From IMG/VR virus record IMGVR_UViG_3300017772_000036, positions 1-39,868 of that record: a DNA stretch of 39,868 bases; one strand, given 5' to 3'. Every line of letters starts with the position of its first letter. Positions within the stretch are counted from its first letter, which is position 1. Under the pieces are notes generated by a model. It worked only from the letters and a program-made list of their open reading frames with translations. It had not been told where the DNA came from and did no database searches. This document shows, in pieces, positions 32,361-34,221 of this stretch. Made by a program: the position numbers and the translations under genes. The DNA is from a virus.

Positions 32361-33062
32361 CTATCCTATCACAAATCCACTCTCATCCTGCTTGGCTCTA
32401 CCCTTGGCATATAATGCTACCACTACGCCTTGTGGGTCTAGGAACCTCAGGTCATCCTTATCACCATCCACCACAGTGAAGCCCATGAATGTCTTAGGTA
32501 TCTTGTGCTTATGCCTAAACACCACAGCCATATTGTTGGTCATATTGCCACGCATCTCCTTCAACACCATAGAACTATACCTGCCACTGGCTTGGCTATA
32601 GGACAAGGTTAGGTGATAGTTATCCGGCAATGCCTTACGCACTCGCTTAATATCCTTGGTGTAGTCATAGAACTGTACATCAGGGAACTTATCCATAATG
32701 CCATAGCGTTCCCAGTGTATGTCACTAGTCCCATTTAATCTCACTACTGCCTTGATACCCTTCTTCCTGCAATACATCCTGAACTTGCTAATGTCCTGTA
32801 TCAAGTCGGCTATAAATATCTCAGGGAAATCACGCCACAAGATAGTCTTGCGCTGTCGTGCTGCCTGTACACTGTTCATGGCTCCTCGCCCTGCTGTATA
32901 CAAACACCCTGCCTTGCACCCTGCCAGCACAGCCATAGGGCATACGTTTATCCCTTTCACTGTATTGGCCGGAGCTAGATATAGGATAGCAGTAAGATAC
33001 TCACTGCCATCACCTTTTACTGTTTTGGCATTATTGCCAACACCTAATAGCTTTAGTTTCAT
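32361..33062 (-). CDS. GP88-like phage protein with cysteine cluster
   Basis: The 233-residue protein begins MKLKLLGVGNNAKTVKGDGS and has 'NVCPMAVLAGCKAGCLYTAGRG', then 'QAARQRKTILWRDFPEIFIADLIQDI', 'AVVRLNGTSDIHWER', 'FYDYTKDIKRV', 'LTLSYSQASG'. This is the pattern I associate with phage GP88-type proteins (Pfam 'Gene product 88'), whose function is unknown. The three cysteines (C..., GC..GC) could hold metal or an iron-sulphur centre, and the 'R.NG.SDI.W' and 'YDYTK' segments look like a TIM-barrel core. AGGGGT precedes the ATG; that site lies at the edge of a 20-base inverted repeat. Confidence 0.8.
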   Translation of the reverse strand: MKLKLLGVGNNAKTVKGDGSEYLTAILYLAPANTVKGINVCPMAVLAGCKAGCLYTAGRGAMNSVQAARQRKTILWRDFPEIFIADLIQDISKFRMYCRKKGIKAVVRLNGTSDIHWERYGIMDKFPDVQFYDYTKDIKRVRKALPDNYHLTLSYSQASGRYSSMVLKEMRGNMTNNMAVVFRHKHKIPKTFMGFTVVDGDKDDLRFLDPQGVVVALYAKGRAKQDESGFVIG

Positions 33063-33073
33063 GGTTTTTACCC

Positions 33074-33093
33074 CTAGCTGTTACAAGGTACAA
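33074..33093. repeat. Inverted repeat copy A in leader of GP88-like gene
   Basis: On the plus strand this is CTAGCTGTTACAAGGTACAA. Its exact reverse complement lies at 33361-33380. In the transcript it is the stretch directly before the AGGGGT ribosome binding site of the GP88-like gene, and pairing with the 33361-33380 copy would extend one base further into that site. A separate 6-bp hairpin (33094-33099 with 33109-33114) lies just upstream in the same leader. Confidence 0.9.
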
Positions 33094-33128
33094 CGATTGA
33101 AGGGAGAACAATCGCTGTCCTTTATACG

Positions 33129-33326
33129 TCATGCAGGACGTTTACAAAACGTGCCTTTTCTGTTGCCAGTAATAGGGCAATCAAAAGCAAGACGACTAAC
33201 AGATAGATAACCCTTGTTCCCGCTGAAAGAACCCTTGCGTCCATAACGCTTGGTCACTCTACGAAATTGCAGGTTATGCTTACCGATAGGATTTACAATT
33301 ACATTATTTTTTACTGTTTTAAACAT
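33129..33326 (-). CDS. First early gene: small basic protein
   Basis: The 65-residue protein starts MFKTVKNNVIVNPIGKHNLQ and continues 'FRRVTKRYGRKGSFSGNKGYLSVSRLAFDCPITG', ending NRKGTFCKRPA. It is strongly basic with two cysteines. ATG 33326 is about 9 bases after AGGAG; part of that site falls in the 3' arm of the hairpin at 33337-33381. The first genes of T7-like phages usually act against host defence or transcription, but no motif supports a particular function. Confidence 0.7.
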   Translation of the reverse strand: MFKTVKNNVIVNPIGKHNLQFRRVTKRYGRKGSFSGNKGYLSVSRLAFDCPITGNRKGTFCKRPA

Positions 33327-33336
33327 AGCATCTACT

Positions 33337-33381
33337 CCTAGTGCTGTTATAGGTACACCATTGTACCTTGTAACAGCTAGG
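33337..33381 (-). promoter_or_regulatory. Stem-loop in leader of first early gene
   Basis: In the transcript, CCTAG-CTGTTA-(CAA)-GGTACA pairs with TGTACC-(TA)-TAACAG-(CA)-CTAGG around a four-base loop, about 17 pairs with one internal loop and one bulge. The 3' arm ends in the AGG of the AGGAG site of the 65-residue gene, so the folded form could hide it. The 5' arm is also perfectly complementary to the leader of the GP88-like gene (33073-33093). The fold is read from the sequence by eye; its stability was not calculated. Confidence 0.7.
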
Positions 33382-33778: not shown

Positions 33779-34000
33779 ACACTTTTTTTAAGTTACTGAA
33801 AACAAAAAGAAAACAGATAGAGAGAGACACAAGAGAACACCAAAGAACACAAGCGCAAACCATAGTCAGCCACGTGTCGCGCCAAATCACACCAAAGTGA
33901 GCCAAGGTATTATTGCGTATTTTGCAATTATTGATCGGGCGCGTTCCTTAGTCGCGCGGGCGTAGGCGCGGGCATGCGGGGGTGTGCGCGTATTGCTTGT

Positions 34001-34030
34001 ATTATATACCCCCTCAGATTTTTTCGTCAA
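34001..34030 (-). promoter_or_regulatory. Sigma-70-like early promoter
   Basis: In gene direction TTGACG (34030-34025) is followed by TATAAT (34006-34001) with 18 bases between them; TATATA at 16 bases is an alternative. This is the best host-type promoter in the window. Transcription would start near 33993-33995 and run through the leader into the early genes, as the A promoters do in T7. Confidence 0.7.
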
Positions 34031-34032
34031 AT

Positions 34033-34221
34033 TTAAGTCTCCATGGCTCCCTTGATAGTACAAGTGTAGTCCACAGTCTTCCAATGACCATCTGGTTGTA
34101 TTTCTTCATGTACGTCTTTCATCTCAATACAGTCGCTACGCTCATCAAACCATTGTATGTCCTGTGTAAGACACCCAGAATCCATACACACTGTCAGTAG
34201 TAATGTCCAAATAACTTCCAT
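34033..34221 (-). CDS. Small cysteine-rich, possibly exported protein after terminase
   Basis: The 62-residue protein starts MEVIWTLLLTVCMDSGCLTQ, a short hydrophobic N-terminus that could be a signal or anchor, followed by 'DIQWFDERSDCIEMKDVHEE' and 'WKTVDYTCTIKG'. Four cysteines could form disulphides if exported. It lies downstream of the large terminase, where T7 has small gene 19.5. Its plan (hydrophobic start, C...W/F...D.C...W...C) resembles the 67-residue protein at 37311-37514, suggesting the same family. The ribosome binding site (AAGG) is weak. Confidence 0.65.
   Translation of the reverse strand: MEVIWTLLLTVCMDSGCLTQDIQWFDERSDCIEMKDVHEEIQPDGHWKTVDYTCTIKGAMET

Follow-up and report, generated by a model that had tools for sequence, protein, structure and literature searches.

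In a virus from the IMG/VR collection (IMGVR_UViG_3300017772_000036; the 39,868 nucleotides analyzed are hereafter the window), one transcript segment is complementary to the leaders of two successive genes. The locus thus raises the question of whether these pairings are real, whether they exclude one another, and what they do to the two genes.

A long-range pairing around a small gene

The window phage is T7-like, with a split T7-type RNA polymerase, a T7-type terminase, and a family A DNA polymerase. The RNA polymerase is encoded as two overlapping minus-strand open reading frames (30942-30169, RPOL_N; 30172-28526, RNA_pol). On the minus strand the gene order is terminase, a sigma-70-like promoter, a long noncoding leader, gene 1, and the GP88-like gene 2, and by comparison with T7 we take this locus to be the left-end early region. 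The likely early promoter (TTGACG-N18-TATAAT, 34001-34030, minus strand; 11 of 12 consensus matches) would give a leader of ~660 nt. Gene 1 (33129-33326, minus) encodes a 65-amino-acid basic protein that has no Pfam or PHROG match and no tblastn match among phage isolates; AlphaFold modeled it only with low confidence (pLDDT 47.5). Gene 2 (32361-33062, minus) encodes the GP88-like protein (PF17338). Between 32900 and 34342 the minus strand showed nothing resembling a terminator, and so no intrinsic terminator formed by one of the alternative folds, as an attenuator or terminator-type riboswitch would have.

The strand common to the competing pairings is segment A (33381-33361, minus; CCTAGCTGTTACAAGGTACAA). 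Its long-range partner, L2 (33093-33073, minus; TTGTACCTTGTAACAGCTAGG), lies in the leader of the GP88-like gene and complements A at 21 of 21 positions, forming a perfect inverted repeat whose arms are separated by 267 nt and enclose gene 1. Including wobble pairs and flanks, the predicted duplex comprises ~27 pairs (-45.6 kcal/mol) and extends into the AGG of AGGGG (33075-33071, minus), the Shine-Dalgarno sequence of gene 2 (SD2). The perfect 21-base match and its wobble extension to a ribosome binding site are thus as originally predicted. With loops of up to 400 nt allowed, no perfect inverted repeat other than A:L2 reaches 12 nt anywhere in the window; the longest in 200 Markov shuffles was 15 nt, and A has no second partner elsewhere in the genome at a threshold of at least 18 of 21 pairs. 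A 411-nt RNA spanning the region (33440-33030) folds with z = -3.95. The A:L2 repeat is therefore far above chance. The local alternative, proposed as a fold of about 17 pairs between A and the leader of gene 1 (L1), was also recovered: an extended A:L1 hairpin (33337-33381, minus; 18 pairs, -20.7 kcal/mol) ends, as proposed, in the AGG of AGGAG (33339-33335, minus), the Shine-Dalgarno sequence of gene 1 (SD1). In the window, then, both computed folds exist.

Conservation of the pairing in relatives

We collected relatives from viral contigs by GP88, gene 1, and DNA-pattern searches, obtaining ~60 loci with the window's layout, of which 41 are distinct in the paired segments. Because some loci were collected by the H1 pattern (the hairpin described below) and by complementarity to A, mere pairing among them is partly a product of data selection. 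The protein-based searches form the unbiased part, and their loci split sharply into those with the element (duplex scores of 47-64) and those without (28 or less). Four pattern matches (L126, L129, L135, and L152) were discarded as false positives.

A helix of the 22-bp class is kept despite wide sequence change, as in L102 (CCAGTGCTTACAAGGTGTAA/TTGCACCTTGTAAGTGCTGG); the arms in L191 read GACTGCTTACAGGATACAAT/GTTGTATCCTGTAAACAGTC. Across loci the predicted duplexes have 21-33 pairs (mean 25 pairs, -37.8 kcal/mol), and at some loci the helix extends to 30-35 bp. In 26 distinct composites of the 22-bp helix, 97.9% of cells are paired and 15 of the 22 pairs show double changes. The covariation score was 0.491, compared with 0.193 for shuffled alignments (0/500) and 0.03-0.12 for slid ones. 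On a gene 1 tree we counted 32 double compensating branch events in A:L2 and 9 pair breaks, against 0-2 for slid controls; these counts are approximate because the tree uses ~200 nt and ancestors were assigned by parsimony. Coordinated changes in dozens of relatives indicate that the A:L2 pairing itself is under selection, upholding the proposed RNA-level interaction, and on this comparative evidence the structure near-certainly exists and is conserved. Within the 21 core pairs, a locus has on average 1.98 G-U pairs and 0.12 A-C pairs, a ratio of 16 to 1, and this excess argues for selection on the mRNA-sense RNA rather than on a DNA site.

The element is seen where gene 1 comes first behind a long leader, except in L222 and L238, where A has been lost, and gene 1 homologs lying close behind another gene are without it. 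In most lineages the helix stops right at SD2 or close to it, and six different gene 2 clusters follow. Since gene 2 varies below one helix, the junction itself, rather than the gene that comes after it, should carry the function.

Two close comparisons bear on individual alleles. A differs between the window and L006 (G/A); L2 carries the compensating change (C/T), and L1 has no matching change. L157 combines the A allele of L105 with the L2 allele of other neighbors, leaving one A-C mismatch, which suggests either recombination or a change left uncompensated.

Local hairpins, partner exchange, and Shine-Dalgarno access

Three local hairpins adjoin or overlap the long-range helix. H1 (33351-33368, minus; AGGTACA-ATGG-TGTACCT) is a universal 7-bp hairpin joining the 3' half of A to the 5' half of L1. 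It is 98.9% paired in relatives, with five of its seven pairs doubly changed. The four-pair extension past H1 is only 69% paired in the family. The proposed A:L1 pairing thus holds for its covarying core; the longer form, in which the L006 change goes uncompensated, appears to be largely private to the window lineage. P0 (33375-33416, minus; AGCTAGGCAT..ATGCCTAGCT; -23.1 kcal/mol) overlaps the 5' half of A with its 3' strand, and a consensus P0 hairpin with a covarying upper stem occurs in most of 23 aligned relatives. The hairpin loops are conserved, as GAUAGCAA/GAUGACAA in P0 and AUGG in H1. The 5' half of A can pair with the 3' half of L2 or the 5' strand of P0, and its 3' half with L1, as H1, or with the 5' half of L2.

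The third hairpin, P3 (33085-33122, minus; AAGGACAGCGATTG..CAATCGTTGTACCTT), directly follows gene 1 and overlaps the 5' half of L2 with its 3' strand. It is universal, its core covaries, and its loop ranges from 3 to 10 nt among loci. A contest between its 5' strand (B) and A for L2 was considered and dropped: where P3 overlaps the remainder of L2, lineage matching is marginal (-18.6 for own and -18.0 for swapped strands), and we claim no such competition. Downstream of gene 1, at the position of P3/L2, L221, L222, and L238 have a perfected local hairpin (CTAGTGCAA..TTGCACTAG); all three are without segment A.

The original prediction held that the two pairings of A are mutually exclusive. 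When we calculated the folding of a growing transcript, A was on L1 and P0 (~0.5 and 0.3, respectively) while the 3' end stood at 33085 or before, and had moved to L2 (0.87) once the 3' end reached 33073. Folding with versus without long-range pairs favored A:L2 across the family by a mean of 9.3 kcal/mol, with a mean probability of 0.76. The full forms are incompatible, and in this thermodynamic calculation A does change partner. Exclusion is nevertheless partial: the minimum free energy (MFE) fold of the window combines H1 and P3 with a shortened A:L2 helix at the base, in preference to the full duplex, so that a duplex of 20 or more base pairs may not always form.

It was further predicted that hiding one gene would expose the other. 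For the window alone, predicted accessibilities move in that direction upon long-range pairing (SD1 from 0.52 to 0.75, SD2 from 0.26 to 0.19), whereas the family means are nearly flat (SD1 from 0.57 to 0.54, SD2 from 0.47 to 0.40). This negative carries only moderate weight, because Shine-Dalgarno positions were chosen by motif and a few loci lacked a usable site. Swapping A between loci cost A:L2 11 kcal/mol and left SD2 pairing unreduced, whether the outer part or all of A was exchanged. In the L102, L163, and L175 lineages, SD2 lies outside the continuous core helix, although bulged extensions can still reach it. With A:L2 kept while Shine-Dalgarno access barely shifts, selection appears to see the helix and no particular toggle of ribosome binding sites; reciprocal exposure of the two genes is thus not borne out as a conserved function.

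What the helix may do

Most likely, the helix governs cutting and reading of the early message. The account toward which we lean, tentatively, is that it forms a long-range stalk looping out the first early gene and serving most likely as an RNase III processing and insulation site. Host RNA polymerase would make the leader, in which A would fold locally into H1 and P0. About 290 nt later the polymerase would pass L2, which would capture A, looping out gene 1 with its Shine-Dalgarno sequence, coding region, stop codon, and P3, and holding the gene 2 leader up to SD2 in double-stranded RNA. RNase III could then cut the duplex in the fashion of a pre-rRNA stem, yielding separate gene 1 and gene 2 messages, the latter beginning at a new 5' end shortly before SD2; left uncut, the helix would insulate gene 2 and tend to close it. 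We favor this stalk because a long helix around gene 1 ends at SD2 and is followed by six gene 2 clusters. A:L2 also has the length that RNase III requires, more than simple Shine-Dalgarno occlusion would call for: the predicted covarying duplexes give some two helical turns or more of double-stranded RNA, at an early gene border (leader/gene 1/gene 2) of a T7-like phage. Counting against the stalk, translation of gene 1 could hinder A:L2 pairing.

Known systems offer partial parallels to such a stalk. The known RNase III sites of T7 are local hairpins rather than long-range helices, which also counts against the stalk. They resemble the element in placing double-stranded RNA at an early gene border before a Shine-Dalgarno sequence, in a polycistronic early mRNA that the host transcribes; the element differs in that its strands, 267 nt apart, stand on either side of an entire gene, in that local hairpins compete for them, and in that its cutting is putative. 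T7 early mRNA has five RNase III cut sites (PMC4858673). In the icaR mRNA of Staphylococcus aureus, a long-range helix likewise surrounds one open reading frame, and the duplex of its 5' and 3' UTRs over the Shine-Dalgarno sequence is an RNase III substrate (PMC3868564); there the enclosed gene's own site is hidden, whereas here the next gene's site lies at the helix, and gene and layout differ. Bacterial pre-rRNA stalks also use complementary flanking strands of ~25 bp to enclose a segment for release; in the element, which RNase III would cut similarly, the enclosed segment is a coding gene of a phage mRNA.

The main rival to processing is an uncut translational switch, in which A:L2 hides SD2 and frees SD1, the local fold does the reverse, and the order of the two early genes follows, much as in icaR or the hok fold-back. 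In the hok mRNA of plasmid R1, early leader hairpins similarly yield to long-range pairing once downstream RNA has been made; in hok the partners are the 5' end and the extreme 3' end, and the element has no known toxin or antisense gene. The duplex touches SD2 at most loci, A changes partner in the calculation when L2 is transcribed, and predicted accessibilities do toggle in the window itself, all of which favors the switch. It becomes the less probable account given that accessibility shows no family-wide toggle, that Shine-Dalgarno pairing is not lineage-matched in the swaps, that the A:L1 extension is unconserved, and that SD2 falls past the continuous core helix in the three lineages named above, even if bulges can reach it.

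A promoter between the segments had been named in advance as a finding that would refute the proposed control. Most relatives do seem to have one between gene 1 and L2, a TTGACA followed after 16-18 nt by a weak -10; the window's internal -35 is degenerate, with A:L2 intact. In relatives a gene 2 transcript without A may therefore be made, which would account for an escape of gene 2 from the helix or would permit pairing in trans. In the trans arrangement, a short early RNA containing A would act as an antisense on L2 at the 5' end of the separate gene 2 transcript, which the internal promoter would start just before L2. The c4 RNA of P1/P7 (RF01695) and the CI RNA of P4 provide phage precedents in which a leader segment complements a downstream ribosome-binding or leader region of the same transcript, c4 antisense and target lying on one transcript; the element lies in a T7-like phage and has no Rfam match, and an immunity function or processed small RNA would be putative here. 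The window's degenerate promoter despite its intact helix, and the lack of a terminator-like site after A on the minus strand, make antisense action in trans quite unlikely. An architectural platform, on which the basic gene 1 protein might bind, or which might serve antitermination or transcript stability, seems similarly improbable: several conserved-loop hairpins surround the helix and gene 1 proteins are small and basic, but there is no sign of a binding partner, gene 1 is modeled with little confidence, and some gene 1 homologs occur without the RNA. The perfect 21-bp repeat of the window, and the overlap of TTGACA with a dyad near L2 in relatives, could also suggest a DNA-level operator, recombination, or inversion site, an alternative raised with the original prediction. 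G-U pairs occur in the helix at all 41 distinct loci and A-C pairs are rare, so Watson-Crick symmetry of the DNA is not kept; the P3 loop varies in length and the arm sequences covary freely. We regard a DNA site as very improbable indeed.

Rfam, including c4, gave no match at gathering level and nothing beyond chance matches when the limit was relaxed to E = 5, and megablast of the region against phage records gave none. The element was not seen beside the GP88 genes of HMO-2011, Sieqvirus S42C7, HTVC134P, or Rhizobium phage TRX32-1, its exact pattern has 0 matches in bacterial genomes, and the open-access papers covered by an incomplete literature check do not describe it. Long-range mRNA pairing is known in principle; what appears new is this element, the gene-enclosing layout that it has in T7-like phages, and its breadth. 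As a structured RNA it lies outside Rfam, covaries with unusual clarity, and stands where the early program of T7-like marine phages begins; enclosing a whole gene would tend to hide such an RNA from motif searches for local structures. With considerable reserve, we suggest that the strand-exchange junction of P0, H1, P3, and A:L2 which spans the first early gene, could belong to a class of phage regulatory RNA that is new: L2 would capture A after transcription of gene 1 and so time the release or silencing of the remaining early operon, in many T7-like marine phages and with any second gene. The element offers a simple, testable handle on the order of first gene products in such phages.

Two smaller observations concern neighboring sequence. 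The close relative L006 has a tRNA gene downstream (1550-1620), Rfam reporting none in the window. After the terminase gene, the window (33990-34035, minus) carries a motif like AAAAAATCTGAG(A)GGGTATATAAT; it recurs in Sieqvirus S42C7, with a shorter match in Rhizobium phage TRX32-1, and may be an early promoter or a genome-end signal.
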